Source: a virus
Virus record (IMG/VR): IMGVR_UViG_3300021961_008259
Location: 1-45,375 of that record
Reading direction: 5' to 3' (one strand)
DNA: 45,375 bases
Part shown: in pieces, positions 4,038-24,639 of the stretch
Numbering within the stretch: the first letter of the stretch is position 1
How the letters are laid out: each line of letters starts with the position of its first letter
Program-made: the position numbers and the translations under genes
Notes under the pieces: generated by a model
The model's database searches: none
What the model was told of the DNA's origin: nothing
Seen by the model: only the letters and a program-made list of their open reading frames with translations

Positions 4038-4768
4038 GTCCCAAAGTAACCATCATAATACCTTGTTATAACTCAGAGAAGTGGATCGAAGAATGTATCA
4101 TGTCTGCGTTAAATCAAACTTATGATAACAAGGAAGTAATTTTTGTTGACAATGAAAGTTCTGATTCAAGTTTAGAAATAGCAAAAAGAATACAAGAAAC
4201 TCACAAAGAATTAGTAGTCGAGACAGCAGAAAACATCTACAAACATTCTTATCAGGAACCAGTAGAAAAGGCGCTGAGTATTTCGACCGGTGAATATGCA
4301 ACAATATTGGGATCTGATGACTTCATCGATGAAGACTATATAAAAAATATAGCCGAAATTTTAAGCAAGTCTGATAAAATTTCCGTATTACAGTCTCCGG
4401 TAAGGGGCGTGAAGGGCGTAGAAAAAACATTTGTAGGGGAGATCTCCCATTCTTATAAAAACCTGCAACAGTTTAAAGAACAGCTTTTCATTCGATGCCC
4501 AGTAACGACTCCGACGATAGTGTTTAAAAAAACTTTGTATGATAGCGGAATTGTTAGATGGAAGTCAGAAGAATACCTTGGCGCATGCGACTATGAATTA
4601 TATTTCAACTTGACAGATAATAATATTTTCATATATCCTTTTCCGAAATGGATTGGGTACTACTACAGATGGCACGAAGATCAATGTACTTGGGGAATGC
4701 ACAAAGAAGAAACTAACTTCGATCAAAAAATCAAAGACTATTGGAGAAACAAGTGGACACGAACTTAA
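4034..4768 (+). CDS. GT2 family glycosyltransferase
   Basis: A 244-residue GT-A fold enzyme of family GT2, which usually makes inverting linkages. It starts VTIIIPCYNSEKWIEECIMS, and the UDP-binding aspartate is D39 in IFVDNESSD. The metal-binding DxD-type motif is SDD at 94-96 in ILGSDDFIDED. A conserved-looking WIGYYYRWHEDQCTW follows near the C-terminus, but I see no membrane segment, so it is likely soluble. It overlaps its upstream neighbour by four bases and the next gene starts inside its 3' end. The substrate is not predictable from sequence alone. Confidence 0.92.
   Translation: MSPKVTIIIPCYNSEKWIEECIMSALNQTYDNKEVIFVDNESSDSSLEIAKRIQETHKELVVETAENIYKHSYQEPVEKALSISTGEYATILGSDDFIDEDYIKNIAEILSKSDKISVLQSPVRGVKGVEKTFVGEISHSYKNLQQFKEQLFIRCPVTTPTIVFKKTLYDSGIVRWKSEEYLGACDYELYFNLTDNNIFIYPFPKWIGYYYRWHEDQCTWGMHKEETNFDQKIKDYWRNKWTRT
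4743..4747 (+). promoter_or_regulatory. Shine-Dalgarno site favouring a GTG start at 4753
   Basis: GGAGA at 4743-4747 lies 5 bases before GTG 4753. The open frame also allows TTG at 4741, but nothing resembling a ribosome site precedes that codon. Confidence 0.5.
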
Positions 4769-5361
4769 CAGAAGAAGACTTGAGAAATTTTGAATTAGAA
4801 ATATTTGATTTATTCAAGAATAAAAAAATTCACTCTCCAATCCATTTACGTGGCGGAAACGAGAAACAGTTAATAGAAATTTTCAAAAACATAAAACACG
4901 AAGATTATTGTTTTGCGACTTGGGCTAGCCATTTAGAATGTTTATTGAAAGGTGTACCAAGAGAAGAATTAAAGAAAGCAATATTGAAAAATAAATCTAT
5001 TTGCTTATCTTTTAAAGAATACAATATTCTGTCTTCTGCAATTGTTGGTGGAAATGCACCGATCGCCGTTGGTATAGCAAAAGGCTTGAAGATGAAAGGT
5101 TCAACTCAACACGTATGGTGTTTCGTGGGCGATATGTCATTCTACACAGGTAGTGTACAGGAAAGCTTAAGGTATGCAGAGGTACATGACCTGCCAATTA
5201 CTTTTGTGGTAGCCAATAATCACAAAAGTGTTGAAACGCCGACAGAAGAAGTGTGGGGTAATGATATTAAGGAACTTGCAATTAACTCAAAGAAATGCAT
5301 CTATTATGAATATGAAAACCATTTCCCTCATGCTGGAATTGGAGAGAAGGTATTATTTTAA
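4753..5361 (+). CDS. Thiamine-diphosphate enzyme, E1 alpha-like subunit (PP domain)
   Basis: A 202-residue protein related to the alpha subunit of 2-oxoacid/acetoin dehydrogenase E1. Visible matches are SPIHLRGGNE near the N-terminus, then YCFATWASHLECLLKGV, then SSAIVGGNAPIAVGIAKG. The thiamine-diphosphate/Mg motif is VGDM at about 125-128, followed some 28 residues later by NN (155-156); the usual third residue, Gly, is Met here. Family alpha subunits are about 320-360 residues, so this is a compact form that stops soon after the cofactor motif. The partner gene at 5361 supplies the pyrimidine-binding domain. The GTG start at 4753 is chosen for its ribosome site. The context suggests two-carbon transfer onto a sugar rather than central metabolism, but this is inference. 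Confidence 0.82.
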   Translation: MDTNLTEEDLRNFELEIFDLFKNKKIHSPIHLRGGNEKQLIEIFKNIKHEDYCFATWASHLECLLKGVPREELKKAILKNKSICLSFKEYNILSSAIVGGNAPIAVGIAKGLKMKGSTQHVWCFVGDMSFYTGSVQESLRYAEVHDLPITFVVANNHKSVETPTEEVWGNDIKELAINSKKCIYYEYENHFPHAGIGEKVLF

Positions 5362-5894
5362 TGACTAACTTAAACTACGCAGAAGAATTAAACAAAGCAA
5401 TGTCTTATCTTTCTGAACAGGAAGATACCATTTTTCTTGGACAAAGCATGGTATATGGAGGAATTGCTATCGCTAATTCATTTAACTCTATACCTTTGGA
5501 AAAAAGAATTGAGATGCCTGTCGCAGAAAACCTACAGTTAGGCATCTCAACTGGAATGGCGTTGACGGGTTATGTCCCGATATCCGTGTATCCAAGATGG
5601 AACTTTTTGATCTTGGCATCAGACCAATTGGTGAATCATTTAGACAAGCTTTCGGAAATGACTTTGGGACAATATAAGCCAAAAGTAATTATAAGAGTAG
5701 CAGTCGGAGTAACAAAGCCTGTTGATCCACAAGAGCAGCATGTCGGAGACTTTACAGAAGGTTTTCAGAAAATTGTAAAGAATATTAATATTGTGAAGCT
5801 AGAAAAAGCAGAACAAGTGATGGAAGAATACATCAAGGCGTATACACGCACAGATGGAGTTTCGACTATTCTAGTAGAAGAACATCAGTTTTAA
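5361..5894 (+). CDS. Thiamine-diphosphate enzyme, E1 beta/transketolase-like pyrimidine-binding subunit
   Basis: A 177-residue protein matching the pyrimidine-binding domain of E1 beta and transketolases. MPVAENLQLGISTGMALTG carries the glutamate (E56) that in the family contacts N1' of thiamine diphosphate, and ILASDQLVNHLDK matches the conserved DQ-x-N stretch. The C-terminal transketolase domain (about 130 more residues in normal E1 beta) is absent, and the stop at 5892-5894 is followed at once by the next gene, so nothing suggests a frameshift. TAATG coupling with the alpha-like gene implies equal synthesis of the two subunits. Together they would form a minimal thiamine enzyme with the active site at the subunit interface. 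Confidence 0.82.
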   Translation: MTNLNYAEELNKAMSYLSEQEDTIFLGQSMVYGGIAIANSFNSIPLEKRIEMPVAENLQLGISTGMALTGYVPISVYPRWNFLILASDQLVNHLDKLSEMTLGQYKPKVIIRVAVGVTKPVDPQEQHVGDFTEGFQKIVKNINIVKLEKAEQVMEEYIKAYTRTDGVSTILVEEHQF

Positions 5895-5895
5895 A

Positions 5896-6801
5896 ATGAA
5901 GATACTGTTAGTAGCAAATAAAACTATCGGAGGAAACCCAGATAGTATTTCTTGGTATTTCGCAGACCCGATGAAAAGTCTTGGGCATGAGGTGTATTTT
6001 TACGACACTGTCGAGGGCGATCCATCTGGTACTTTTACATCAGTTCTAGAGAGCTTTAAACCAGATCTGGTGTTCTGTATTACAACAGGAAACCAAAACA
6101 TGACGCCATATGAGCCATGGGAAGAGCTTCTTGAGGAAACGAAGTCTGGTCGAACTAAAACATTTAATTGGTTCTGTGATGATACATGGAGATTTGACAG
6201 CTTTTCTTCAAAAGCATGCGAGAACTTCACGGTGTGTTCGACTCCAGAGAGGAGCCACTTACAAAAATACAAAGAAATAGGTTACGACAATATTATATTA
6301 GCCAATTGGCATGCTCCTTCTGAGTATTTTCCAAGTGTAAAATTTCAAGATAAGAAATTTGAAACTACTTTTATTGGTAGACTTTCGCAACAAAGAGTAA
6401 GGTTTCTTGAAAAAACAAAAGTAAAAATACAAGTCATACACAACTTAACTCAGGAACAAATGTTTCATGCATTTTCAAATACAAAATTTGGAATCAACCT
6501 ATCAGTAAACTACAATGATCCAGAACTGAAAACACAAATGAAACAAAGAATATTTGAAACTACCGCTGGTGCTGGGTTGCTTGTTACTGAATATCACCCC
6601 GGTATAGAAGAATACTTTGAGATAGATAAAGAAATAATAACGTTCGAAACAACAGAAGAGTTTAGAGAAAAGGTAACCTTCCTACAAAACAAACCACAAA
6701 TAGCTGAGAAGCTAGCAAAAGCAGGTCATGAAAGGTTTTTGAAAGAACATGACTCAAAGATAAGACTAAGCAGAGTATTAGAAGAGATAATGGCAATATG
6801 A
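5896..6801 (+). CDS. CgeB-like glycosyltransferase (second copy type)
   Basis: A 301-residue protein of the CgeB-like glycosyltransferase type. The N-domain starts MKILLVANKTIGGNPDSISW and includes FNWFCDDTWRFDSF. The C-domain opens with FETTFIGRLSQQR and has the family signature MKQRIFETTAGAGLLVTEY followed by IEEYFEID. It is only distantly like the gene at 3072, so the pair is not a recent duplication. It starts one base after the stop of the thiamine-enzyme beta-like gene and overlaps the following SDR gene by four bases. It may use the sugar made by those flanking enzymes, but that is only a guess from position. Confidence 0.8.
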   Translation: MKILLVANKTIGGNPDSISWYFADPMKSLGHEVYFYDTVEGDPSGTFTSVLESFKPDLVFCITTGNQNMTPYEPWEELLEETKSGRTKTFNWFCDDTWRFDSFSSKACENFTVCSTPERSHLQKYKEIGYDNIILANWHAPSEYFPSVKFQDKKFETTFIGRLSQQRVRFLEKTKVKIQVIHNLTQEQMFHAFSNTKFGINLSVNYNDPELKTQMKQRIFETTAGAGLLVTEYHPGIEEYFEIDKEIITFETTEEFREKVTFLQNKPQIAEKLAKAGHERFLKEHDSKIRLSRVLEEIMAI

Positions 6802-7646
6802 ACGTGTTAATTACTGGTGGAAATGGCTTTCTCGCAAAAGAAATGGTGCGATATTTTTCGAATAAAAAAGAATACACTCTGATCGTTACCGATAGAAATA
6901 CACTAGATCCCACAAATTATGAAAATGTAAAAGACTTTTTTAATGACATCAAAGTCGATATTGTGATTCATACTGCTGTAAAGGGCGGAAAAAGAGGACA
7001 GTACCAAACAACAGAGCAGTTTTTTCAAAACATTACAATGTTTGATAACTTATCAAAATTCTCAGACAAGTTTGAAATAATGTTTAATTTTGGTTCAGGC
7101 GCCGAGTTTGATAGAAGGTTTGATATTAAAAATGCAATAGAGTCAGATATCTTCAAGTCAAATCCAATCGAAACATATGGTCTAGCCAAGAATCTTATAT
7201 CTAAAAGAATATACGAACTTGACAACAACATTTACAATTTACGATTATTTGGATGTTTCGGAACTTTCGAAGAGCCCCAGCGGTTGTTCAAAAAATGCTA
7301 CGACAATTTTTCAAAAGGAATAAATGCCAACATAACCCAAGATAGGTATATGGACTATTTCTACGCACAGGATGTTGGTCGTGTTATAGAGCACATCATA
7401 GCAAACCATGATATATGGCGAATGTCGCCAGACTTTAATTTGTGTTATCGAGAGAAATACAAGCTAAGTGAATACGCCGAGATGATAAAAAAATTGACAA
7501 ACAATGCCGAAGATGTTATTATTAAGTCTAACGAGATTGCATATTCTTATACGGGAGACAACTTTCTTCTGGAAGACTTGGGCGTCAAACTCGTTGGACT
7601 AGAAAAGGGAATGAAAGAATGTCTGAAAAATTGGAGCAAATCCTAA
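6798..7646 (+). CDS. NAD(P)-dependent NDP-sugar epimerase/reductase, extended SDR family
   Basis: A 282-residue extended short-chain dehydrogenase. The nucleotide-binding loop is VLITGGNGFLAKE, in which the third glycine of GxxGxxG is alanine (A13). The catalytic Tyr-x3-Lys is YGLAK (Y127, K131), and the serine region is NFGSGAEFDRR. It resembles NDP-4-keto-sugar reductases and epimerases more than dehydratases, as it lacks a TDE motif. It lies between the thiamine-enzyme/CgeB genes and the RfbH-type dehydratase, so a role in reducing a keto-sugar intermediate fits. It overlaps the next gene by 28 bases. Substrate and exact reaction are inferred only. Confidence 0.8.
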   Translation: MNVLITGGNGFLAKEMVRYFSNKKEYTLIVTDRNTLDPTNYENVKDFFNDIKVDIVIHTAVKGGKRGQYQTTEQFFQNITMFDNLSKFSDKFEIMFNFGSGAEFDRRFDIKNAIESDIFKSNPIETYGLAKNLISKRIYELDNNIYNLRLFGCFGTFEEPQRLFKKCYDNFSKGINANITQDRYMDYFYAQDVGRVIEHIIANHDIWRMSPDFNLCYREKYKLSEYAEMIKKLTNNAEDVIIKSNEIAYSYTGDNFLLEDLGVKLVGLEKGMKECLKNWSKS

Positions 7647-8959
7647 ACTTAGTTTCTGAGTATGTTGCTGAGAAACAAGAAAACGAGAAGTGGACACCCG
7701 GTCAAGACTGGGTTTCTTATTCTGGACCGGTCTTTGACGATAAGGAATATCTTGCGGCTGTTAGGCAAGTACTTGACGGTTGGATGATCTTTGGAAAGAA
7801 CGCAAGCGAGTTCGAGCAAAAGTTTCCATCAAAGCTTGGAAAATTGTACGGAGCACTCACAAACTCCGGAAGCTCCGCCAACCTTCTTATGGTTGCAGCT
7901 ACAAAGTCCAATAGATTCAAGAAACAACTGAAAGACGGTGATAAAATCATTACACCAGTTGTTTGTTTTCCGACAACCATCAACCCCATCATCCAAAACA
8001 ATTTGGTTCCAGTATTTGTAGATGTTGAGTTGCCCAGTGTTAACTTGGACCTCGACAAAGTTGAGGAAGCCCTTGAGGCAGACCCAAGCATCCGAGGAAT
8101 TATGTTTGCTCATGTTCTTGGAAACCCACCGGACATGGACCGCTTGATGGCGCTTATTGAAAAGTATGATCTTGTCTTTTTAGAAGATGCCTGTGATGCT
8201 CTTGGTTCTTATTACGACGGCAAGAAACTTGGTTCGTTTGGCGATATGTCTACTTGCTCTTTCTTCCCTGCTCACCACATGACGATGGGCGAAGGTGGCT
8301 TTATCGCAACAAACAGTTTGAGGACAAAGACTATTCTTGCTAGTGTTCGTGACTGGGGTCGTGCTTGTTATTGCAACACGCAGAAGCCCGGAAACGTAAC
8401 AAGCGCGACAGCATGCGGAAACAGGTTTAAGAACTGGTTGCCGGGACTTAAGGAAGCCGTGTATGACCATCGCTATGTCTTTGACGAAATTGGATATAAC
8501 CTCAAGCCGCTCGATTTACAGGCTGCAATGGGTCTACAACAGCTTGATAAGCTTGAGATGCTAGATAGTGCTCGTAGAGTTAACTGGGAGAAGATGAAGC
8601 AAATATTCGCCCCTTACGAGCGTTTCTTTCACATTCCAGAAGCAACAGAAAAGTCTGATCCTTGCTGGTTTGCTTTTCTTCTGACTGTGAAAGAGGACGC
8701 CCCGTTCTCCAGAAGTGATATTGTTGAGCACCTAGAAAGCTTCAAGATCCAAACAAGATCTTATTTCTCTGGAAACATTCTTGCTCACCCCGGTTACATA
8801 CACATGGCTGAGGAGTATGGTGACATGAACGTTACATTCCCTAATGCTCAGTTGGTTACAACCAACTCATTCTTCTTGGGGACATATGCTGGTCTGACTG
8901 ACGAGAAGATTCAGTATATTAAAGAAGCAGTTGATGGTTTTTTGGGAGACTTTGAGTGA
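7619..8959 (+). CDS. rfbH: RfbH/E1-type NDP-4-keto-6-deoxyhexose 3-dehydratase (PMP and [2Fe-2S] dependent)
   Basis: A 446-residue member of the DegT/DnrJ/EryC1 fold. The usual PLP-binding lysine is replaced by histidine in SFFPAHHMTMGEGG (H219-H220), the hallmark of E1/RfbH (CDP-6-deoxy-hexulose-3-dehydratase) and of ColD. Length matches RfbH (about 437) rather than ColD (about 390). Four cysteines are placed like the E1 iron-sulfur ligands: C192, C250, C252 and C266, a C-x57-C-x1-C-x13-C pattern. The first two gaps equal those I recall for E1, and the last is longer than the usual seven. The expected reaction removes the C3 hydroxyl of a 4-keto-6-deoxyhexose, giving 3,6-dideoxy sugars. No E3 reductase or CDP-glucose genes are seen in the window. 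Confidence 0.88.
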   Translation: MSEKLEQILNLVSEYVAEKQENEKWTPGQDWVSYSGPVFDDKEYLAAVRQVLDGWMIFGKNASEFEQKFPSKLGKLYGALTNSGSSANLLMVAATKSNRFKKQLKDGDKIITPVVCFPTTINPIIQNNLVPVFVDVELPSVNLDLDKVEEALEADPSIRGIMFAHVLGNPPDMDRLMALIEKYDLVFLEDACDALGSYYDGKKLGSFGDMSTCSFFPAHHMTMGEGGFIATNSLRTKTILASVRDWGRACYCNTQKPGNVTSATACGNRFKNWLPGLKEAVYDHRYVFDEIGYNLKPLDLQAAMGLQQLDKLEMLDSARRVNWEKMKQIFAPYERFFHIPEATEKSDPCWFAFLLTVKEDAPFSRSDIVEHLESFKIQTRSYFSGNILAHPGYIHMAEEYGDMNVTFPNAQLVTTNSFFLGTYAGLTDEKIQYIKEAVDGFLGDFE

Positions 8960-9906
8960 AACTCGTTTATGTGACTGGATGTCTAGGCTTTATAGGATCC
9001 TATGTAACAAGAAAATGCTTGGAGCGCGGCTGGAAAGTTTACGGCATTGATAAGGAAACATATGTCGCCAACAGGTCTTTGTTACAAGAGTTTCTTGCTC
9101 ACGACAACTTTCATTATTTAAATGTTGATATAAAAGACCTAGACCATCTATATGACTGTGACTATGTTATTAACACTGCCGCCGAATCTCATGTTGGAAA
9201 CAGCATTATTGATAGCAAAGAGTTTATCAACAGCAATATTGTTGGCGTACAGAACCTTCTCGATCTAATCAAAAATAAGCCCGTTAATTGTAACCGCCGT
9301 CCAATTTTCTTCCATTTTAGTACCGACGAGGTATATGGAGACATTGTTGAAGGCGAGCACACGGAAACAGATTTACTTCATCCCAGTAACCCTTACTCTG
9401 CCGCTAAAGCCGCGGCAGACATGCTTGTTCTTGCTTGGGCGAGGACTTATGACTTAGAATACGTCATATTGCGACCAACGAATAACTATGGTATTGGACA
9501 GTATCCCGAAAAGCTTATACCTCTGTCTGTTAAAAACCTCATGAGAGACAAAAAGATACGCTTGCACAACGGGGGCACTCCAGTTAGAAATTGGCTCCAT
9601 GCAGATGATACTGCGGAAGCCGTGATGGCTATTATAGACTCCGGAAATGTAAATGAGATCTATAATGTTGCCGGCGGCTTTGAACAAAAGAATATTGAAA
9701 CAGTCCTGAAGGTGATCGACTGCTATTGTGAAGGTGAATATAAGTGGGAAGAATACGTTGACTTCTCATATTCTCGCGAGGGTCAAGACGTTCGCTATGC
9801 GTTAAACGACGAAAAACTGCGTAGCCTTGGTTGGAGCCCTAAAAAGGTTTTCGATAACGAAATAAATGCGATTGTACAATATTACAAAAATAATTTTATA
9901 TGGTAA
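8956..9906 (+). CDS. dTDP-glucose 4,6-dehydratase-like enzyme (RmlB type)
   Basis: A 316-residue extended SDR starting with GTG inside an overlap with the RfbH gene. VYVTGCLGFIGSYV gives the NAD-binding GxxGxxG loop. FSTDEVYGD carries the catalytic Thr-Asp-Glu (123-125) typical of NDP-glucose 4,6-dehydratases, and YSAAK gives Tyr147 and Lys151. RPTNNYGIGQYPEKLIP is also RmlB-like. CDP-glucose dehydratases (RfbG), as I recall them, have TSDK-type sequence instead of TDE, so this looks like the dTDP-type enzyme, although substrate choice is not certain. It is somewhat shorter than usual RmlB (about 350). It should produce a 4-keto-6-deoxy intermediate, the class of substrate the neighbouring 3-dehydratase needs. 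Confidence 0.86.
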   Translation: MKLVYVTGCLGFIGSYVTRKCLERGWKVYGIDKETYVANRSLLQEFLAHDNFHYLNVDIKDLDHLYDCDYVINTAAESHVGNSIIDSKEFINSNIVGVQNLLDLIKNKPVNCNRRPIFFHFSTDEVYGDIVEGEHTETDLLHPSNPYSAAKAAADMLVLAWARTYDLEYVILRPTNNYGIGQYPEKLIPLSVKNLMRDKKIRLHNGGTPVRNWLHADDTAEAVMAIIDSGNVNEIYNVAGGFEQKNIETVLKVIDCYCEGEYKWEEYVDFSYSREGQDVRYALNDEKLRSLGWSPKKVFDNEINAIVQYYKNNFIW

Positions 9907-9921
9907 TTTAAAGGAATACAA

Positions 9922-11667
9922 ATGAAAATTTTACTCTGCTGCACGTCTATCCAAGACGAACATAGAAGTGACGACAACCACGACAGTCACTACCCACTTG
10001 GGCTTGCATATTTGCAATCTTATATTGAGCACCATCGCCCCGGTAAGGATGAGTTTATTAACCTTTACCTGAATAATGTGCCATATGAACAATGTTACGA
10101 TGAAATCAAGAAAAATCTAGCAGAGTTCCAACCAGAAGTTTTCGGTGTATCAATTATGACTCACAGTAGGGTTACAGCGTACAGAATGATCGAATATGTA
10201 CATGAAAACTATCCCGATACCAAGATAGTTGTTGGTGGTATGCACCCGAGTGTTATGTGGAAGCAGATGGTAGAAAAGTATCCATACATCGTCGCAGTCC
10301 GCGGCGAGGGAGAAGTTACCTTCAATGAGCTTATTGAGTTCTATGCCGGCGAAAAAGATATGAATATCGAAGATGTCGCTGGTATCGCATTTCACGATGG
10401 AGAGAAGGTAGTAGCTACAGCAGCTAGACCGCTCGTTGCCAATATTGATGACCTTCCGTTTCCAAAACATGAGCTTTTTGTTAAAGATGGAAAAACAATG
10501 GGCAATCTTTTGACAAGCAGGGGTTGTCCATACAAGTGCAATTTCTGTGTTCTAGATCATACATCTTTGAGAAAGGTGCGCTTCCGCTCAGGAGACAATA
10601 TCGCAGATGAAGTAGAAGAGTTAATAACAAAGTTTCCAAGTATCAATACTATTTGGATCCACGACGATGCGTTCATGATCAATAAAGAAAGAACCCTTGA
10701 GTTTTGCGAAGCAATCATCAGAAGAGGTATCAAGACTCAGTTTGTTGCTAGTGCGAGATTCCGACCCATTGATGAAAATGTTGTGCAGAAAATGGAACAG
10801 GCTGGATTTATTCATGTTCTTTTTGGGCTCGAAAGTGGCGCCGATAATGTTATTAGTGGAATGAGAAAAGGTATAACCAAGGAGCACGTCCGTTACGGCT
10901 CCAGTCTTTTTGCAACAACAAAAATGAAAGCAACTGCCTTTCTTATTGCTGGTCTTCCGGGTGAAACAGACGAGACTATCGATGAAACAATTGACTTCGT
11001 TCAAGAAATTCAAAATATTAATTATCTTTTCTATGATGATATTGGTGTATCGATGATCTACCCCGGTACAGAAATGTACACGATGGCAAAAGCCACAGGA
11101 AAGATTGACGATGACTACTGGCTTACAGATAAAGATGTTCCCTATTATACAGTTGAGAATGGCGGGGTCCATACATATGAAAAGTTATTAGAAATGAAAG
11201 AAAAGATTAGACAGGCGGTATCACTACAGCATATGTTTACGCCAGAAGGTTTCTTGAAACAAAGAAAGGTTATTCCTAGTATGTTGAAGTATGCACAGAT
11301 TCATAATATGACAGCTATTAATAATATTCTATTCGACGCTTTTAACAGATTTGGTCTAGCAAATGAAATGATAAAAGCTGTAATGTCTGGGGATCCGGTT
11401 GATGAAATTGTAAAAAAGGGAGCAATTGCTTTCGAAAAGATGCTTATTAATATTATCATGCATAACAATAATATCAGCACCCCTGATCAGCAAAAACTTT
11501 TTATTAATAAAGTCGTTGCACAAACTAAAATAGATGCTTTGGCATTAAAAGAATACGAAGCACGTCGAAATGCTATTCAATATGATGGTGACAAAGATAA
11601 GGGCGATATTGATTACAAGAAGAATTTTATTGAAAACAAACTCGACATTAATATCATAGGTCAATAA
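9922..11667 (+). CDS. B12-binding domain radical SAM protein
   Basis: A 581-residue protein with a cobalamin-binding-type N-domain (about 1-140; SHYPLGLAYLQSYI, VVGGMHP, VRGEGEVTFNELIEF) followed by a radical SAM domain. The [4Fe-4S] cysteines are C202, C206 and C209 in SRGCPYKCNFCVLD, the CxxxCxxC motif. FGLESGADNVISGMRKG and FLIAGLPGETDET are standard motifs of this class. These enzymes often methylate unactivated carbons or perform other radical chemistry, but the substrate cannot be read from sequence. A clear ribosome site (AAGGAA at 9911-9916) precedes the start, after a 15-base gap. The context suggests sugar or glycan modification; methylation of another target is possible. The C-terminal 180 residues have no motif I recognise. 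Confidence 0.88.
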   Translation: MKILLCCTSIQDEHRSDDNHDSHYPLGLAYLQSYIEHHRPGKDEFINLYLNNVPYEQCYDEIKKNLAEFQPEVFGVSIMTHSRVTAYRMIEYVHENYPDTKIVVGGMHPSVMWKQMVEKYPYIVAVRGEGEVTFNELIEFYAGEKDMNIEDVAGIAFHDGEKVVATAARPLVANIDDLPFPKHELFVKDGKTMGNLLTSRGCPYKCNFCVLDHTSLRKVRFRSGDNIADEVEELITKFPSINTIWIHDDAFMINKERTLEFCEAIIRRGIKTQFVASARFRPIDENVVQKMEQAGFIHVLFGLESGADNVISGMRKGITKEHVRYGSSLFATTKMKATAFLIAGLPGETDETIDETIDFVQEIQNINYLFYDDIGVSMIYPGTEMYTMAKATGKIDDDYWLTDKDVPYYTVENGGVHTYEKLLEMKEKIRQAVSLQHMFTPEGFLKQRKVIPSMLKYAQIHNMTAINNILFDAFNRFGLANEMIKAVMSGDPVDEIVKKGAIAFEKMLINIIMHNNNISTPDQQKLFINKVVAQTKIDALALKEYEARRNAIQYDGDKDKGDIDYKKNFIENKLDINIIGQ

Positions 11668-11668
11668 T

Positions 11669-11815
11669 ATGAAGAAGCAGCAAATGATGATGTCCAAAGA
11701 TGATTATGACCATACAAGATGCAATGAAATTGTAAACGAAATATTTGAGAAGTATAAGGCTTCAAAAAAAAATGAAGAACAACATGAACAAAAACGTTTT
11801 AGTAACCGGAGGTAG
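11669..11815 (+). CDS. Possible small protein of 48 residues
   Basis: An open frame beginning two bases after the radical SAM stop and ending inside the fucose synthase gene. The product is very polar and basic-acidic (MKKQQMMMSKDDYDH at the start, a [11 protein letters not shown] stretch at the end), with one cysteine and no domain I recognise. Only a weak ribosome site (AGG, about 8 bases upstream) is visible. It fills what would otherwise be the only gap of more than 100 bases in the island, which favours a real gene, but such a short charged frame could also be chance. Confidence 0.4.
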   Translation: MKKQQMMMSKDDYDHTRCNEIVNEIFEKYKASKKNEEQHEQKRFSNRR

Positions 11816-12686
11816 CGGTTTTCTTGGACGAAGACTTAAGTTGTCGAAACCAGACTGGACTTATATCTCTTCTAAAGACTGCGACCTAACCAACACCGAA
11901 CAAGTAAAGCAACTATTCGGAGATATAAAGCCAGATGCTGTTTTGCATTTGGCTGCACGTGTTGGTGGTATCAAAGATAACATAGAAAACCAAGCAGACT
12001 TTTATCACATTAACACAATGATGAACACAAATGTTATTCATCAGGCATATAAGGTTGGTATTCCTCGCGTTCTTTCATCTTTGAGCACATGCGCGTTTCC
12101 AGAGGAAGTATCATTCTTTCCATTTTTGGAAGAAGAGTTTTTTAAAGGACCACCAACAATAACAAACTTTTCATATGGAATGACGAAGAGAATGCTTCAC
12201 GTATCGTCTTGCGCTTATCGCGAGCAATATAATATGAACTATTCTACGTTTTGTCCGTCAAACATATATGGACCAGAAGACCACTTCGGAAGTCAAGCAT
12301 CGCACTTTGTAGCAGCACTTATACACAAAATATACAACGCAACTGATGGCGATATCGTAGAAATGTGGGGAACTGGAATGCCCCTACGACAGCAGTTGTA
12401 TGTTGATGACCTATGCAAGATCATTCCTATATTACTTGAAAAGCACAACACTAGCATTCCTTTGATAGTTGCACCAAATGAAAACCTTTCTATCTTGGAA
12501 ATGACCAGAACTTTGGTTGAACAAACAGGCAAAAATGTGAGAACATTATTTAATGGGAATATGGATGGACAGTTCCGTAAAGACGGTTCCAACGGTCGTC
12601 TACTAGAACTCATAGGACCATTCGACTTCACTAGTTTTAGAGATGGAGTACACAAAACATACCAATGGTATTCGGAGAATAAATGA
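11784..12686 (+). CDS. fcl: GDP-L-fucose synthase
   Basis: A 300-residue bifunctional 3,5-epimerase/4-reductase that converts GDP-4-keto-6-deoxymannose to GDP-L-fucose with NADPH. Visible motifs are [13 protein letters not shown] (cofactor loop), [22 protein letters not shown] (Ser101 and Cys103 at the positions of the E. coli active-site Ser and Cys), YGMTK (Tyr131, Lys135), [10 protein letters not shown], and [15 protein letters not shown]. The start at 11784 is chosen because the family begins just before the cofactor loop; ATGs at 11772 and 11745 (the latter a non-ATG start) would add an uncharacteristic basic tail. The gene directly precedes gmd with a four-base overlap, so both steps of the pathway are coupled. 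Confidence 0.93.
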
Positions 12687-13672
12687 GCAAACAAAAGAAA
12701 GCATTAGTAACAGGCGCCACGGGTCAAGACGGCTCGTATTTAGTTGATCTGCTACTAGATAAAGGCTACGAGGTTGTAGCAGTCAAAAGAAGAACATCGC
12801 TTATCAGCACAGATAGGATCGATCATGTATTTTCAGACTTACAAAAGATGGACAATTTTAGTTTAGTTTATGGAAACATGATTGATGCTGGAAATATCCA
12901 TCGCCTACTTCTGGACCACAAGCCAGATGAAATCTACAACCTAGCCGCCCAGTCGCACGTCCGAGTTTCATTTGATACGCCAGAGGAAACTGCTGAGATA
13001 GTTGGTATGGGCACTCTTAGACTTTTAGAGGCAGCCAGAAATATTTGTCCTGATGTGAAGATCTATCAAGCATCGTCCTCCGAGATGTTTGGCGACAACC
13101 CAGAGAACCCACAGTCAGAAGCCACACGTTTGATGCCTGCTTCGCCTTACGCTTGCGCTAAGGTGTTTGCCCATAACCTTTGCCGAAACTACCGAGAAAG
13201 TTATGGTATGCACATTTCTAGCGGTATTCTGTTTAACCACGAGTCACCCCGCCGCGGCGAAACATTTGTAACACGAAAGATCACAAAGGCTGCTGCTCGT
13301 ATTCGTCTGGGACAGCAAGATAAATTATATCTTGGTAACCTTGAAGCCAAGCGCGACTGGGGGTTTGCAGGCGACTACGTGGAAGCAATGTGGTTAATGC
13401 TACAACAAGAAAACCCAGATGACTATGTTATTGCAACTGGCGAGACACACACTGTTGAAGAGTTTCTTCACGAAGTGTTTGACTATGCTGGTTTAGACGT
13501 TTCTAAATACGTTGAGATAGACGAGAGGCTGTTTAGACCTCACGAGGTACCTCTTCTGCTAGGAGACCCCACAAAAGCCAAGGAACAGCTTGGATGGGAA
13601 CCAAAAGTCAAGTTCAAAGAACTGGCTAGGATGATGTATGACGAAGACCTCAAAGCCAACGCAAAACACTAA
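12683..13672 (+). CDS. gmd: GDP-mannose 4,6-dehydratase
   Basis: A 329-residue enzyme that converts GDP-D-mannose to GDP-4-keto-6-deoxy-D-mannose, the precursor of GDP-L-fucose and of colitose, rhamnose and perosamine. Motifs are unmistakable: [13 protein letters not shown] (NADP loop), [22 protein letters not shown] (Ser133, Glu134), SPYACAK (Tyr156, Lys160) and [15 protein letters not shown]. Length is near the usual 330-370. GGAG at 12674-12677 supports the start. The partner fcl lies just upstream, and no GDP-mannose synthesis genes are present, so GDP-mannose is expected to come from the host or from genes outside the window. Confidence 0.97.
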
Positions 13673-17835: not shown

Positions 17836-20800
17836 ATGGCTGAAGATAAATTTGTAACATTTAATAAGACTATGGTCCCATCTAACGAGATGGAAATGAC
17901 GCCTCGTGCGCAATCTCCATTCATTAGGTTTCAAGATAAGAATGGCGATGGCATTGATGATGTATGTGCTGACGGACCAACCCCAATCCAAAAATGCAGA
18001 CAATGTATACCTAACCCTTATTCCATCATCGGAAACTGGCGCAACAGAAACCAGTTGAACCCCATTCTTAATGAAAAAAGCTGTAAGTATCAAATAACCT
18101 ACGTTACCCCTGAGACAACAACTGGTTATGTAGAAGGGATGACCGAAGAAGAAGCAGCGGTTGTTTTGAAATCGATTTATGACAAATACGCTGCCAGAGC
18201 AGTACAAGCCCTAGTAGAACATTTCCAAAAAGATGACTCACGTGAGACAATAGAAAAACTATTGAAAGTAACTGACTACACTGACTTCTACCTTGAAGCT
18301 CGCGCTGGTTCAAGACTTAAGTTATTGTATTCTTTAGACTTTGATGACATTTATGAGTTGCCACCTATTAAAGATGATTATTCTGATTCTGATGAAGAAG
18401 AAGTAGAAGCAGATGATATAGTTGTCACAATATTAGCAGCTAGTATGAATGAGCAAATAACAAAGCTCAGAAAAACATTAGATCTCTACAATAGATATCT
18501 CAAAGTATTTAGAGCCACTGAGGGTGGAAACCTGAAGTTTAAGAAAACTGATAGAATGTTCAACCTCGGAGACTATGGCGACGATGGCTTTTTCGGATCC
18601 GGTATTTTAGCAGACACGTACCATCAGTTAGATAACTGGCTTGCTGCGAGGGGATATACACTTGGTGTTAGTTTCTTTGACTTTTTTAGTTCGGATGAAC
18701 TTATAACAAAGATGCGAATGGTATTTTCCGGAGACTATAGAATTAAGAAACTGTCAGTTTATACTAGAGGCTGTAGGGATAGACCAGCCGCCGTATATAA
18801 ACAAAGAAGGCTTGCTAGCTTAAGAAGACAAAGTGGTTGGAGAGATAGAACAGCCGTAGCATATTTTGCTAACCAGAAAAATATGATTCGTGATGCAGAA
18901 GCTCGCCGCCCAAAGCCTTGGCTTGATTTCTTACAAGAGTACACGTATCCAGAGATTTATGTTTACAAGCCCGCGGAAGGACCAGTTGGAAAACCCAGTA
19001 TTAGTGGCTGCGTAGCCAATAACCTCGAAAATGAATTTAAGGAACTTGGACAGGACATTTTTGACGAAGTGTTTAGCATTGGAGACGCAATTGCTAAACA
19101 ATTCCATGAGTCACTTTGTCGTTCAAATCCAGATGAAGTAAGAAAAGATTTGGCAGCACAAGGTCTGGCACCCGGTTCCACGTTCACAGACCTGTTTAAC
19201 ATGGAAGCCCAGTCACAGATGCAAGCCTTTTTTACGGTTGATGAAAAGGATCCGATCTTTGTCAACATGTGTAAGAGAGCGTTATTAGCGCATGGTTTCG
19301 GTGGTATGGGAATGGACCAAATGGATCAACTGTACCGACATGGACTAGGGCCATTAAAGTTCTGTGGTTTATTCGATCTTCTCTTCGAAGCAATGGAATG
19401 TTTATTTAAGGGTTTGGCACTAGAAGAGGCATTAGGTAGAATCTTGCTGACATCTCTAAAAGCCATGGGTGTCGAAGACTTCGGAGCACTTTTTGTTGGG
19501 CTTCCACCAGAAAAGAGAGCAGAGCTAGATGCATTAGTAAGAAAGAATCTGAGAGAAGGAAAGCCTTTCCAAAACTTAGGTGACCGCTCACCTGCTGCTG
19601 AATCCGCACCTTTCTGGGGTGGATACAGGATTGAAAAACCATGGGAAAACGAGGAATATGTAGCCCATCAGCAAGCTATTGGTCGCCCCGGACCATTTGG
19701 CGGCACACAAGCATCCAAGAACCCCGGTATTGTTGGATATGACCCAACACAAGAGAGGAGAACTCTTTCTGAAAAACTTGGTGGACCTTCATCTGCTTCT
19801 AAGGACGGTTTAGATCCGAGTGTCGTGCTTGACGCATATGTCTTAGCTTTAATCGAGGTTTATGAAGACAACTATCTGGCTCTTCTGGACCATCTCAGTG
19901 CTTTCCCCGGTGCTCAACTTATCTCCGCAGTTATATCTTTGTTTGACTGTCCGACACCGCCGTTATTTAACCCCGGTATCATGGACTTCATTAAGAGTCT
20001 ATCGCTACCATTCTGTCAGAGCCCTACAGATATTGTATCAATAAGAATGGAAAACCCATTTAGGGCTTGGCCAAAACTCAGTGACATCTTGGGTTTAATT
20101 TTCGCAGTATTGAAAAAGCTGCTGATAATGTTACTTGTTAAGATACTTCTGATGATTCTTGCAAAGATATGCGAAATCATTGGTAATGCCATCTGTAAGG
20201 CTTTGGAAACTGTCGGCGCTATCGCTGGGTCATTACCCGACTTACTGAGCGGTAGAGATACTTTGTATGGAGTTATTAGGGATACTATTTGTGGACCTAC
20301 GGCTGACGATAAGCTTGTTGAAGATACAGTTGTATCGTTGGTTGACCAGCTTGGTGTTGGCGGCGCTGCGTTGGCTGATAGGGAGACTGCTGTCAACTTC
20401 TTCGCGGATGCGATTAACACGATGACTAGAGAGGAAGTGTTTGAGTCTTTCCTGTCTGGACCGTCTTCTACTGCGCTCGAACTGGTTGACAATATCATTG
20501 AGTTCGATTACCCAGAATACCGCGATGCTTTCCCGAGTAAGTCTTCCATCTCTAGCTTCTTTACAAATGTTGGCGTTCTTATTCCTGCTCAAACAAGAGC
20601 AGATATGAGAGAAATTCTTGAAGCATTCCCAGAGGAAATAGCAGGGCCTGCAAACCCATCGATGTGTTCGACTCCAGAGGAGCTTCAGCTTTTCGAGCAA
20701 CAAAGATGTTCACTCTTAGAGGGCAGAATGTCACCTGCACAATGTGAGTCCTTAAACCAAAACGCAAAACAACAGTTGCTCGAAGATCTAGACGATGTAG

Positions 20801-23800
20801 CAAATACTTTGCAGATGGGTATACCAAACTTAATCGAAGCGAATATGCCACCGGTATTCTCTGATCCGGGTTGCGAAAATGGCTTGTTACCTTACGAACC
20901 TGAAGAGTTGAAAGAAGCAGCTATGCTCACCGTTGAGGGCGATGTTAAGAGAATAGAGGCGATGTTCGCCGCGGATATGTTGGGCGAAGGTGGTTTCTTC
21001 TCGAAACAAAAAGACTGGGGCTTTCTTAATATGGTCCTTTCCGATACATACGGAAACCCTTGGACCGTTCATCAAGAGAAAACAAATGCCGGTGCAGAAT
21101 GGGTATCTTATTATGGAGAACCATCAGAAGGCGGACTCGAAGGACCCCCCAGTATACCATCAAGTGTGTGGAAAATACCAATTTGGCTTGTAAATTTCGT
21201 AGCTTACATCGTAACATTACCCTTTTTAATTTTCATTTACTTAATAGATCTGCTGCTTTTCAGTTCTCGCCGCGGCGCCTATCCAAAATGGGTTGCTGGA
21301 TATCTTCATGAGCAATTTAACCCCAGAGGTGCTGGTGTCGGTACGGCAGTTGGGGGCTATAGTCAAGACTCAAGATTCAAAAACGAATTAAGAGGAGGCG
21401 CTACATTTAAATTCTACGGAGGTTCAAGTCATATACCGTTTCAGTCTATGAAATTTTCTTCAACAAATGACTGGCGACCATCCAAGAGTTTTTCTAGAAG
21501 TTTTGACAAGCTTGGCTTCGAGGGTTTCTTCTGGGACACAGATGTAGAATTGGTTGACACAGCAAACTATGGCTATAATGTCTCTGCGAGAGTTGATTTC
21601 GGCAATGATCGGGTTGTTTTTACAAAGAAGGGTAGAAAGAGGACGCCTGATATTGTTTTAACTTATCGCGATAATGGAAAGGGCTATCGCTCTGGCTGGG
21701 GTGCCCCAAGTAATGTATTTGGTGGTGGAAGCAAAGATGCCGGTTTCGGCTTTGGTTATGAAATTAGAGCATATTACCAAGATTTGATAATTGAAGATTC
21801 AGCCGTCAAAAATAGACCTGATGATTGTGTACGTGTCGAAGTAATGACAGCTATCAACTTAGATTCTCCTTTTGGGCTTGGTAATCCTTCTATTTCGTCC
21901 GGACAAGAGAATGAAGCATTAAAGAATTTTGACGGCGCCGAGAGTGTCATAACCTCTCAGAGGTTTGAATTCTTGTCTATTGACGATACACTTGGTGATA
22001 TTGATTTGGCAAATATGCCACTATTAGCATCAAGCTTCGAAAGACAAAGTCCGCTTTCGCCTCCGGTGCTTGGTTTGATAGACATGGTTAGAATGTCAGA
22101 AAGAGAAAATGGTATCACTACTAGCATTAATGGGAACTCCGCAGAGTCTGTATATAACAGAATCAACGAACGCTTTTTTGAAGACTTTGCCACGAAAATT
22201 TATGATAACAATAACGGTTGGCTATTTGGTGCTACATTCCCGAACTATACACGAAAGGATTTTGAGTATGGCGTTACGCTTGATGCCGAGCTATACCAGT
22301 ACAATAAAGACGACTATGAGATAGGAGATTGGGTACCTTACTGGAACCTTAAGGTTTCTGATGGAGAAGGTGGTTCAACATACGTATGGATGTCCGATGA
22401 AGCATTCTTAGGCATAAGCTATAACGCTCACAAAAACCAAGAAAACCCAGAAGATATAGGTATATTCTATCTTGAGCCCGGAAAATATGGCGGTTCTTAT
22501 GTCTTCCCGCCTGTATACGCCAAGCCGCCTCCCAACACAGGTTGGACTGGTATGATAGATATTATGTTCCCAGAACAAAGTCCGCGAACTTGTAAGAGTA
22601 AGCAAGAAGGAATAACTGGCTTTGGAGAGGTGCAGAAGATGGTTCGTGATACGTATGCATCTTTATCAGAGGATGATCGATTAACAGGCGACCCAGACTG
22701 CACCAAGGAGCTTCCGTTCGATAGAATTCTTCCGAGAACTGGAAAAGCGGCAATTCGTGGACTTATAATGGCTGGTATACGCTGTTTTGCTAATGTTGAA
22801 ATAATGAGAGGCCTCGGAACATTTGCTACTTTTGCACCAAACTTTGAAGAAAACTATAGCAAGATATACTCTGGCTTTATCGTAGAGATCATGAAAGAAT
22901 CTTGTATGAGCACTGGCGGCAACTGGCTTAACCCATTCAATGATAACGAGTTTTGGTATGCTTTCTTGGAGATGAGTGTTCAATATTACATTGCGCGCTT
23001 GGATGATCCAAACGATGAATACATTACACTAGAGAATATGCCCGATCCTATCCGTAGGGCACTTGAGAAAATTGACAGACTCCAGAAGTCGTATAAGTAT
23101 CCATGGGACTTCGATGACTTCAACAGTGAAGACTATGGCACATTTGAGTCTATCAAGAGTTTCCGTGAGAGCAAAAACCTTGAAGCAGTTAAAAAGGTCG
23201 AAGACGAAGCAAAACTGGTGTTACAAGAACTAGTCCATGAGCAGTTGGTTGCTGTTGGAAACTTGTTTATTAAGAACGCCGGTAGAGGTGGTTTGAGTCC
23301 AAAGTACAACAATATGAACTACTATTTCTTCAATGAGTACTGCGCTGGTGGAGAAAACTTAGAGCTACATGGAGAGCACAAGTTTAGAGTCAAAAGAGAT
23401 TCGTTGCCTACGTCTGGCAATAACCACTATTCAACTGGCGACCAGCTTGTATTACCAAGCGGCGATCCATATGTGGGAGAATACCACACTCACATTGATA
23501 TAGATGGAGAGTTGATATACATGGCAGGCGCTGAACACAGCGACACAGAAGAGCAAGATAGATTAATACCATTTGCTCATGAGCTTGAAGTATATTCACT
23601 CAAAGAAGAGGTCGTCCCGAATGAAGGTGCTAATGGCTACACGATACAGCGTACCGAAAATACTCTCGGAGACATAGGTTCAACTGCTGATACGTCAAAA
23701 GACTTTTACTTGGCGAAGTTTATTGTCATTAACGGAACAAAATATTCAAATGAAGAAGGCGTCAACAAGGTCCGAGCAGAGACAGGCTTTATTTCAGACA

Positions 23801-24639
23801 ATTTCCCCGGAGACATGAGACTTGTTAAGGAGAAAATAATAAGAGACAATGAAGTGATTGGCGAAGGTCGTCCTGTCGGCGTAACTGGAAACCTTGGAGT
23901 CGAATACATGCTTGAGTTTGGTATGCTTGATCCCGCCACAAAGCAAAAGATACCAATGGCATCTACAAAGATGAGCGCCGTCGATGTTGAGTGTCCTCGC
24001 TTTATCGGTATTGAGGCAGACAGTAAGATATTATGGTGCCTGATTAACCAACTTCAACACGAAGCACATTATCGCTTTGTTGTTGATTATATTTTCTCTA
24101 TGAAGAAGTCGTTGTCTCTTCTTGCAATGTATAACAGCCTTGGACTTACTCCGTCTATTGGCGAATGGGTAACTCCTAGTGGAACATTGAATTCGCCTAA
24201 ACTGCCAACATCGCTTGATGATTTAGCTGGAACCGATGCGAAGAAGCCCGGTGCCCACTTCAAGGGATTCAGGTGGAATGACGAGATAGATCCCCCAGAC
24301 TGGGTAGCGGAGATTACAAACATTCCGGGCTGGTTGTCTGAAGACGATCGTAATGGATGGTTCACAAGCTTTGGTTTCTTAGACTATGACGAATGGGACC
24401 AAGAAATTCTTCGCAAGACAACACGCTTTATGAAGAATGCCTTCCGTACTCACTATCGCAACAGAAAATGGTCAACACCAGATTATGGTGATAGAGATCC
24501 TGTTGGAGAATGGGTTAGCGGCATTGTTGAGAAATTTAGGTTTAATCCTTCATACAAGATTCTTCCATCGTTCCAGAAGAAGCAAGCCCGCGGAAATGTT
24601 TTTGATGCTAACGGAAACGAGTGTAAGAAAAAGGGCTAG
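17836..24639 (+). CDS. Very large virion protein of 2267 residues, possible tail/baseplate component
   Basis: I do not recognise a complete family. The N-terminus has a calcium-loop-like sequence FQDKNGDGIDDVC (D34, N36, D38, D41), then cysteines in QKCRQC and EKSCKY. About 750-805 is strongly hydrophobic (LLIMLLVKILLMILAKI), and about 1111-1145 is another hydrophobic stretch (WLVNFVAYIVTLPFLIFIYL); such stretches occur in tape-measure proteins that enter membranes, but this is no proof. There are many charged and aromatic segments, and the whole is in one uninterrupted frame of 6.8 kb. It lies between the spike-like gene and the gp25-like gene, in the baseplate region. TAGGAT precedes the start. 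Confidence 0.8.
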   Translation: MAEDKFVTFNKTMVPSNEMEMTPRAQSPFIRFQDKNGDGIDDVCADGPTPIQKCRQCIPNPYSIIGNWRNRNQLNPILNEKSCKYQITYVTPETTTGYVEGMTEEEAAVVLKSIYDKYAARAVQALVEHFQKDDSRETIEKLLKVTDYTDFYLEARAGSRLKLLYSLDFDDIYELPPIKDDYSDSDEEEVEADDIVVTILAASMNEQITKLRKTLDLYNRYLKVFRATEGGNLKFKKTDRMFNLGDYGDDGFFGSGILADTYHQLDNWLAARGYTLGVSFFDFFSSDELITKMRMVFSGDYRIKKLSVYTRGCRDRPAAVYKQRRLASLRRQSGWRDRTAVAYFANQKNMIRDAEARRPKPWLDFLQEYTYPEIYVYKPAEGPVGKPSISGCVANNLENEFKELGQDIFDEVFSIGDAIAKQFHESLCRSNPDEVRKDLAAQGLAPGSTFTDLFNMEAQSQMQAFFTVDEKDPIFVNMCKRALLAHGFGGMGMDQMDQLYRHGLGPLKFCGLFDLLFEAMECLFKGLALEEALGRILLTSLKAMGVEDFGALFVGLPPEKRAELDALVRKNLREGKPFQNLGDRSPAAESAPFWGGYRIEKPWENEEYVAHQQAIGRPGPFGGTQASKNPGIVGYDPTQERRTLSEKLGGPSSASKDGLDPSVVLDAYVLALIEVYEDNYLALLDHLSAFPGAQLISAVISLFDCPTPPLFNPGIMDFIKSLSLPFCQSPTDIVSIRMENPFRAWPKLSDILGLIFAVLKKLLIMLLVKILLMILAKICEIIGNAICKALETVGAIAGSLPDLLSGRDTLYGVIRDTICGPTADDKLVEDTVVSLVDQLGVGGAALADRETAVNFFADAINTMTREEVFESFLSGPSSTALELVDNIIEFDYPEYRDAFPSKSSISSFFTNVGVLIPAQTRADMREILEAFPEEIAGPANPSMCSTPEELQLFEQQRCSLLEGRMSPAQCESLNQNAKQQLLEDLDDVANTLQMGIPNLIEANMPPVFSDPGCENGLLPYEPEELKEAAMLTVEGDVKRIEAMFAADMLGEGGFFSKQKDWGFLNMVLSDTYGNPWTVHQEKTNAGAEWVSYYGEPSEGGLEGPPSIPSSVWKIPIWLVNFVAYIVTLPFLIFIYLIDLLLFSSRRGAYPKWVAGYLHEQFNPRGAGVGTAVGGYSQDSRFKNELRGGATFKFYGGSSHIPFQSMKFSSTNDWRPSKSFSRSFDKLGFEGFFWDTDVELVDTANYGYNVSARVDFGNDRVVFTKKGRKRTPDIVLTYRDNGKGYRSGWGAPSNVFGGGSKDAGFGFGYEIRAYYQDLIIEDSAVKNRPDDCVRVEVMTAINLDSPFGLGNPSISSGQENEALKNFDGAESVITSQRFEFLSIDDTLGDIDLANMPLLASSFERQSPLSPPVLGLIDMVRMSERENGITTSINGNSAESVYNRINERFFEDFATKIYDNNNGWLFGATFPNYTRKDFEYGVTLDAELYQYNKDDYEIGDWVPYWNLKVSDGEGGSTYVWMSDEAFLGISYNAHKNQENPEDIGIFYLEPGKYGGSYVFPPVYAKPPPNTGWTGMIDIMFPEQSPRTCKSKQEGITGFGEVQKMVRDTYASLSEDDRLTGDPDCTKELPFDRILPRTGKAAIRGLIMAGIRCFANVEIMRGLGTFATFAPNFEENYSKIYSGFIVEIMKESCMSTGGNWLNPFNDNEFWYAFLEMSVQYYIARLDDPNDEYITLENMPDPIRRALEKIDRLQKSYKYPWDFDDFNSEDYGTFESIKSFRESKNLEAVKKVEDEAKLVLQELVHEQLVAVGNLFIKNAGRGGLSPKYNNMNYYFFNEYCAGGENLELHGEHKFRVKRDSLPTSGNNHYSTGDQLVLPSGDPYVGEYHTHIDIDGELIYMAGAEHSDTEEQDRLIPFAHELEVYSLKEEVVPNEGANGYTIQRTENTLGDIGSTADTSKDFYLAKFIVINGTKYSNEEGVNKVRAETGFISDNFPGDMRLVKEKIIRDNEVIGEGRPVGVTGNLGVEYMLEFGMLDPATKQKIPMASTKMSAVDVECPRFIGIEADSKILWCLINQLQHEAHYRFVVDYIFSMKKSLSLLAMYNSLGLTPSIGEWVTPSGTLNSPKLPTSLDDLAGTDAKKPGAHFKGFRWNDEIDPPDWVAEITNIPGWLSEDDRNGWFTSFGFLDYDEWDQEILRKTTRFMKNAFRTHYRNRKWSTPDYGDRDPVGEWVSGIVEKFRFNPSYKILPSFQKKQARGNVFDANGNECKKKG

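Follow-up and report, generated by a model that had tools for sequence, protein, structure and literature searches.

A compact E1-type thiamine enzyme pair without the transketolase C-terminal domain, encoded by phages and bacteria among keto-deoxysugar genes

Introduction

To our knowledge, all E1, transketolase and DXS enzymes bear a C-terminal domain. The function of such extra domains has been termed obscure (PMC2831816). A natural, conserved version that lacks the transketolase C-terminal (TKC) domain and has a smaller PP domain is a direct test of the purpose of the C-terminal domain. Among thiamine diphosphate (ThDP) enzymes, E1-type pairs are known to put C2 branches on antibiotic sugars, and for AviB1/AviB2, Pau11/Pau12, KbDH and EvdU5/EvdS3 a C2 branch from pyruvate has been proposed or shown (PMC12247030; PMC4425429; PMC10338323). 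In yersiniose A biosynthesis, YerE moves activated acetaldehyde from pyruvate onto CDP-3,6-dideoxy-4-keto-glucose (PMC12247030).

Here we describe a much smaller pair, encoded in a 45,375-nucleotide viral stretch (IMG/VR record IMGVR_UViG_3300021961_008259, positions 1 to 45,375; hereafter the window), whose most likely role is to add a two-carbon branch to a sugar of the cell surface. The finding reaches beyond one phage: a bacterial and viral family, a second loss within the PP domain and a link to sugar 3-dehydratases add to the original prediction, which had been made from the sequence alone.

Results

A genuine compact pair

The PYR gene starts on the final base of the PP-gene stop codon (5361), and a Shine-Dalgarno-like GGAG at 4743-4746 lies six bases ahead of the GTG of the PP gene (Table 1). 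Pfam E1_dh matches the PP subunit at 4.9e-16 over profile positions 6-171 of 300, Transket_pyr matches the PYR subunit at 3.4e-4, below its gathering cut-off, and no Pfam match to the TKC domain is found in the 177-residue PYR subunit. The NCBIfam models for E1-alpha (6.3e-21 against the PP subunit) and E1-beta (PRK09212; 2.9e-12 against PYR residues 1-138) both score far under their curated cut-offs, so that neither subunit is an ordinary PDH subunit. The open reading frames and Pfam domains bear out the original prediction of a small two-gene thiamine enzyme of 202 + 177 residues at 4753-5894 whose beta-like gene lacks the transketolase C-terminal domain; on the latter point the family profile agrees, as it covers only the PYR half of E1-beta.

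Two circumstances that could have made the pair merely look small had been raised with the prediction, a frameshift in the beta gene and a third protein supplying the missing domain, and neither survived. In relatives at 81% identity both genes have lengths identical to those of the window pair, and comparison with the two nearest relatives gives pN of about 0.13-0.16 and pS of about 0.75-0.89, strong purifying selection acting on both genes. Equal lengths and selection together rule out a sequencing frameshift or an assembly truncation. Supply of TKC by a separate gene was rejected because a Transketolase_C family search found no stand-alone copy in the 20 records and genomes behind the loci. 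The window record, the complete S-SM2 genome and the 735-kb phage LR756501 gave no Transketolase_C match; where the family is present (in bacteria, and in one phage also bearing a full-length pair) it always lies within frames of at least 307 aa.

Table 1. Features of the window that bear on the compact pair (positions in the window)
Feature	Position	Strand	Remarks
PP (alpha-like) subunit	4753..5361	+	202 codons/aa, GTG start; longer TTG start at 4741 possible
G126-D127-M128, altered GDG motif	5128..5136	+	M128 invariant in 35 diverse members
N155-N156, GDX25-30N thiamine motif	5215..5220	+	N156 invariant
PYR (beta-like) subunit	5361..5894	+	177 codons/aa, ATG start; terminates where the TKC domain would begin
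E56, catalytic glutamate of PYR	5526..5528	+	100% of 85 PYR sequences
H127 of PYR	5739..5741	+	Aligns with human E1-beta catalytic His (AAQHSQ); 100% of 85 PYR sequences
SDR epimerase/reductase	6798..7646	+	Pfam Epimerase 1.2e-18; cluster shared by 8 window-like or related viral loci
RfbH-type NDP-4-keto-6-deoxyhexose 3-dehydratase, His for PLP Lys	7619..8959	+	NCBIfam RfbH 482 bits vs cut-off 423
NDP-hexose 4,6-dehydratase, closest to dTDP-glucose type	8956..9906	+	TIGR01181 294 bits, below cut-off 365
B12-binding radical SAM protein, recurrent neighbour	9922..11667	+	NCBIfam matches; cluster in 75/151 loci

Distribution and evolution of the family

The compact form recurs in viruses and bacteria, with full-length E1-like pairs beside some of its copies. 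A scan of viral contigs yielded 162 related stretches, from which 80 loci were taken; bacterial and archaeal genomes, scanned likewise, yielded 118 further stretches and another 80 loci, so that the compact pair is found at about 80 loci in viruses and about 80 in bacteria or archaea. In nearly all viral loci a PP gene of ~200 codons has a PYR counterpart of ~178 codons, mostly adjacent, and the same gene lengths are found in Nitrospira, Pelagibacteraceae, Prochlorococcus, Verrucomicrobia, Burkholderiales and other bacterial and archaeal carriers, the PYR chain of the family typically having 174-182 aa. The two genes are neighbours in 120 cases, with fewer than 50 bases between them in 116. 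Twelve loci have other sugar genes, ~3 to 6 kb of them, between PP and PYR, from which it follows that the chains need not be cotranscribed neighbours, and at three loci one phage holds two copies of the compact pair, with several kb between them. Single PP-PYR chains of ~400 aa, also without TKC, occur in S-SM2, P-TIM68 and 57 further viral loci. Among the matches listed for a plasmid collection there were only ordinary E1-alpha genes, at no more than 35% identity. We found no description of the compact pair in the literature searched, with subscription papers largely outside that search.

Viruses and bacteria alternate about ten times in the PP-domain tree, which indicates that the pair has moved repeatedly between them; the clade of the window (3 rows) sits on a long branch and has viral members only so far. 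In seven Pelagibacter loci and one phage locus the compact pair is closely preceded by a full-length E1-like pair (~279 + 305 aa), and several of the loci with both pairs also hold an acetolactate-synthase-like gene. In profile comparison the compact and full-length PP types remain alignable (probability 98.9%), and the PYR types weakly so (82%). On grounds of parsimony, the simpler reading is that TKC was lost by the compact form and not primitively absent. We hold it very probable that the pair represents a genuine compact family of E1-type ThDP enzymes.

Enzyme class and a second loss

The PP family profile matches human E1-alpha at 1.1e-16 and BCKDH at about 1e-10 but split transketolase at only 1e-4, and the PYR family profile matches human E1-beta at 9.4e-14, over the PYR half only, with no other class matched. 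For the AlphaFold2 model of the window PP subunit (pLDDT 91.3, pTM 0.89) the best fold matches are E1p-alpha structures (3dva, 3exe and 1ni4; TMq up to 0.78). In the sulfopyruvate/phosphonopyruvate decarboxylase class the PYR domain precedes PP, whereas in transketolase and E1 it is PP that precedes PYR, as in the fused relatives of the pair. Profiles, fold and domain order thus support placing the pair in the E1 (alpha-ketoacid dehydrogenase 2) class, and they uphold the resemblance to E1, separate from sulfopyruvate decarboxylase, that had first been noticed.

The profile match to the PP subunit ends at residue 164, right after the NN motif, the alignments of its model to E1p-alpha span ~240 columns for 202 residues and are therefore gapped, and its C-terminal segment, IYYEYENHFPHAG, looks like the final strand plus HS loop of E1-alpha. 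From these three observations we infer that, besides the TKC domain missing from the pair, the PP subunit has shed one strand-helix unit between the NN motif and the last strand.

Active-site residues

The catalytic residues that the original prediction had picked out, E56 of PYR and the GD...NN pair of PP, are kept: E56, D127 and N156 are each present in 85/85 sequences of the first, viral set, across which PP residues H60 and H193 are likewise invariant; the catalytic Glu and both E1 histidines are retained across the family. By our reading of the alignment, H193 would be the counterpart of the alpha-subunit loop His studied in BCKDH (1ols/1olx). The Met noted as third residue of the GDG motif is confirmed as well and proves to be a trait of the whole split family, in which Met follows GD throughout with few exceptions. 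Split members have GDM in phages and GDM, GEM or GGM in bacteria, with N156 kept, in place of the standard GDG...NN thiamine/metal motif of the E1 class, while fused members retain GDG. The bacterial motif counts are 35 for GDM, 26 for GEM and 6 for GGM, the frequency of GDM being inflated because the search patterns included 'VWCFVGDM' and 'WCFVGDM'; the bacterial GEM and GGM members entered via another pattern, so the invariance of Met among these members is not circular. The replacement of the Mg-binding Asp by Glu or Gly in some bacterial members suggests that cofactor binding may be unusual. In six marine loci, mostly from Prochlorococcus, GGM stands in place of GDG, the metal-binding Asp is gone and NN has become IN.

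Gene neighbourhood

The RfbH-type protein of the window matches PDB entry 3bcx at 2.5e-105 and carries the motif SFFPAHHMTMGEGG. Replacement of the PLP Lys by His in a DegT fold is the defining change of sugar 3-dehydratases (PMC8987622), and an H-type DegT protein, the signature of ColD/RfbH-type 3-dehydratases, is found nearby in 107 of 151 loci. Across the loci the DegT proteins divide into 120 H-type and 9 K-type, counts that are not independent as the loci are related; a sample of DegT proteins drawn from nine of the bacterial genomes concerned comprises 27 K-type and 7 H-type, some of the 7 being the linked ones. Two different 3-dehydratases fill this slot, a ColD-type (2gms/3gr9) and, in the window, an RfbH-type. 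They are not orthologous but share a product type, and their occurrence next to the pair is the best indication of what the pair acts on. With 4,6-dehydratase-type SDRs in 128 of the 151 loci as well, the E1-like pair is encoded together with keto-deoxysugar genes, a feature of sugar-branching alpha-KADH2 enzymes.

The cues to the nucleotide conflict, since the 4,6-dehydratase of the window is nearest the dTDP type and a GDP-mannose 4,6-dehydratase (GMD) is also present; RfbH normally acts on CDP sugars and needs a reductase. The GMD (12683-13672) scores above its NCBIfam cut-off and is preceded by a GDP-fucose-synthase-like gene, which points to a further deoxysugar route in this phage. The SDR of the window could be the enzyme that reduces the branch or completes the sugar, and the B12-binding radical SAM protein may modify the same sugar as the pair. 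Many bacterial loci add an HddA-like kinase, an HddC-like nucleotidyltransferase and GmhA, which suggests heptose rather than hexose precursors in those loci. In about 30% of loci, including that of the fused GDG cyanophage form, the examined flank contains no 3-dehydratase. In S-SM2 (10978-13197) a Zn-dependent alcohol dehydrogenase comes immediately before the fused form, no member of the 3-dehydratase cluster is nearby, and the fused form may have another substrate. Elsewhere in the window, two very long open reading frames around the baseplate genes (17836-24639, 2267 aa; 28450-39261, 3603 aa, with a LamG-like domain) probably encode tail or adhesin proteins.

Discussion

Since the window encodes a 4,6-dehydratase, a 3-dehydratase, a ThDP enzyme and an SDR, the set that such a branching route would call for, we propose that the pair is a carboligase of the E1 type and that its acceptor is the C4 ketone of an NDP-3,6-dideoxy-4-keto sugar, to which it would add an acyl unit (probability about 0.5); ThDP binding, reaction, donor, acceptor and product are all predicted from sequence and gene context. 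The 4,6-dehydratase would provide an NDP-4-keto-6-deoxy sugar, from which the RfbH- or ColD-type enzyme would strip the C3 hydroxyl. The PP/PYR pair would then use ThDP to decarboxylate a 2-oxo acid, probably pyruvate, and load the resulting activated acyl unit onto the C4 ketone; the SDR would reduce or epimerise the product to give a 4-C-branched 3,6-dideoxy sugar for a surface glycan. Counting against this reading are the ~30% of loci without a 3-dehydratase, the full length of the known branching E1-type enzymes, the variation of the metal-binding Asp and the heptose-type clusters, and we put a 4-C-branching role for the compact pair at roughly even odds.

The heptose-type clusters, in which sedoheptulose-7-phosphate isomerase recurs with the HddA-like and HddC-like genes, also fit a transketolase-like reaction in which the pair takes a hydroxyacetyl (C2) unit off a ketose phosphate and adds it to a keto sugar or aldose, giving a branched or higher-carbon sugar. 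The AlphaFold2 model of the fused S-SM2 protein (pLDDT 92.1, pTM 0.92) matches human transketolase and DXS in fold, and split transketolases have been proposed to branch the miharamycin sugar. However, the sequence profiles prefer E1 to split transketolase by the difference given above, and we consider this reaction unlikely. Somewhat less probable still is a simple 2-oxo acid decarboxylase that releases its aldehyde for a partner enzyme, on the pattern of the sulfopyruvate and phosphonopyruvate decarboxylases, whose two-subunit format is equally small; a Zn-alcohol dehydrogenase also adjoins the fused cyanophage form, but the fused forms have the reverse (PP-PYR) order, no such chain appears among the PDB profile matches, and the 3-dehydratase link indicates a keto-sugar acceptor. 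The loss of TKC and of part of the PP domain, together with the change of GDG to GDM, GEM or GGM, might suggest a degenerate pair, that is, a regulatory, structural or inactive E1 remnant; this is improbable given the invariance of the catalytic Glu and His in 85/85 sequences, the strong purifying selection and a conserved operon spread over many phyla and phages. A role as the E1 of a conventional dehydrogenase complex that feeds a lipoyl E2 protein would suit the sequence class but can hardly be entertained: the neighbours are sugar enzymes, the annotated clusters that recur beside the pair were not seen to include any E2- or E3-like gene, and the TKC domain of a normal E1 is missing.

For the sugar-branching carboligase, gene linkage predicts that a C-C bond is formed on a 3-deoxy-4-keto nucleotide sugar, and so points to unrecognised branched sugars in the glycans of Pelagibacter, Prochlorococcus and Nitrospira as well as phage-encoded surface changes. 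More tentatively, and with less conviction than for the window pair, the compact family could be a widespread and undescribed TKC-less class of E1-type enzymes, with an obligate Met and a drifting metal residue (GDM/GEM/GGM), by which 3,6-dideoxy-4-keto hexoses and GDP-heptoses are generally 4-C-branched for the surface glycans of environmental bacteria and their phages. For biocatalysis, the pair would be a small, fusable, ketone-accepting carboligase.

Comparison with known systems

A direct homologue is the cyanophage 'transketolase central region-containing protein' (S-SM2, P-TIM68; PHROG 34187), which, unlike the window pair, has both domains fused in one 402-aa chain, keeps GDG and has no 3-dehydratase cluster member in the examined flanks; the LPS-type gene clusters of S-SM2 have been described, though not what they do (PMC3037559). 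In split-gene transketolases the C-terminal subunit comprises PYR and TKC, whereas the beta chain of the compact family stops after PYR. ComDE and RhiEF, the sulfopyruvate and phosphonopyruvate decarboxylases, likewise consist of PP and PYR domains alone, in some cases split over two chains (PMC12141560), but they belong to another superfamily whose fused forms run PYR-PP and gave no profile match to the PP-PYR compact family. Membership of the ComDE/RhiEF group was rejected on sequence class and domain order.

YerE shares the proposed type of substrate, an NDP-3,6-dideoxy-4-keto sugar made by an RfbH/E1-type 3-dehydratase (PMC12247030), but it is a single-chain ThDP/FAD flavoprotein of the acetolactate synthase (DC) type, whereas the compact pair has two chains and is of the E1 class. 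AviB1/AviB2, Pau11/Pau12, KbDH and EvdU5/EvdS3 are, like the compact pair, two-gene E1-like ThDP enzymes of keto-sugar pathways. Pau11/Pau12 are full length (325/345 aa; PMC4425429), in contrast to the 202/177 aa of the compact pair, which lacks TKC, and the compact pair further differs from the sugar-branching alpha-KADH2 pairs in having GDM for GDG and in its location in phage and bacterial surface-glycan clusters. On these analogies, the compact pair is best read as an enzyme that would do YerE-like work with AviB1/AviB2-like parts, minus the TKC domain.
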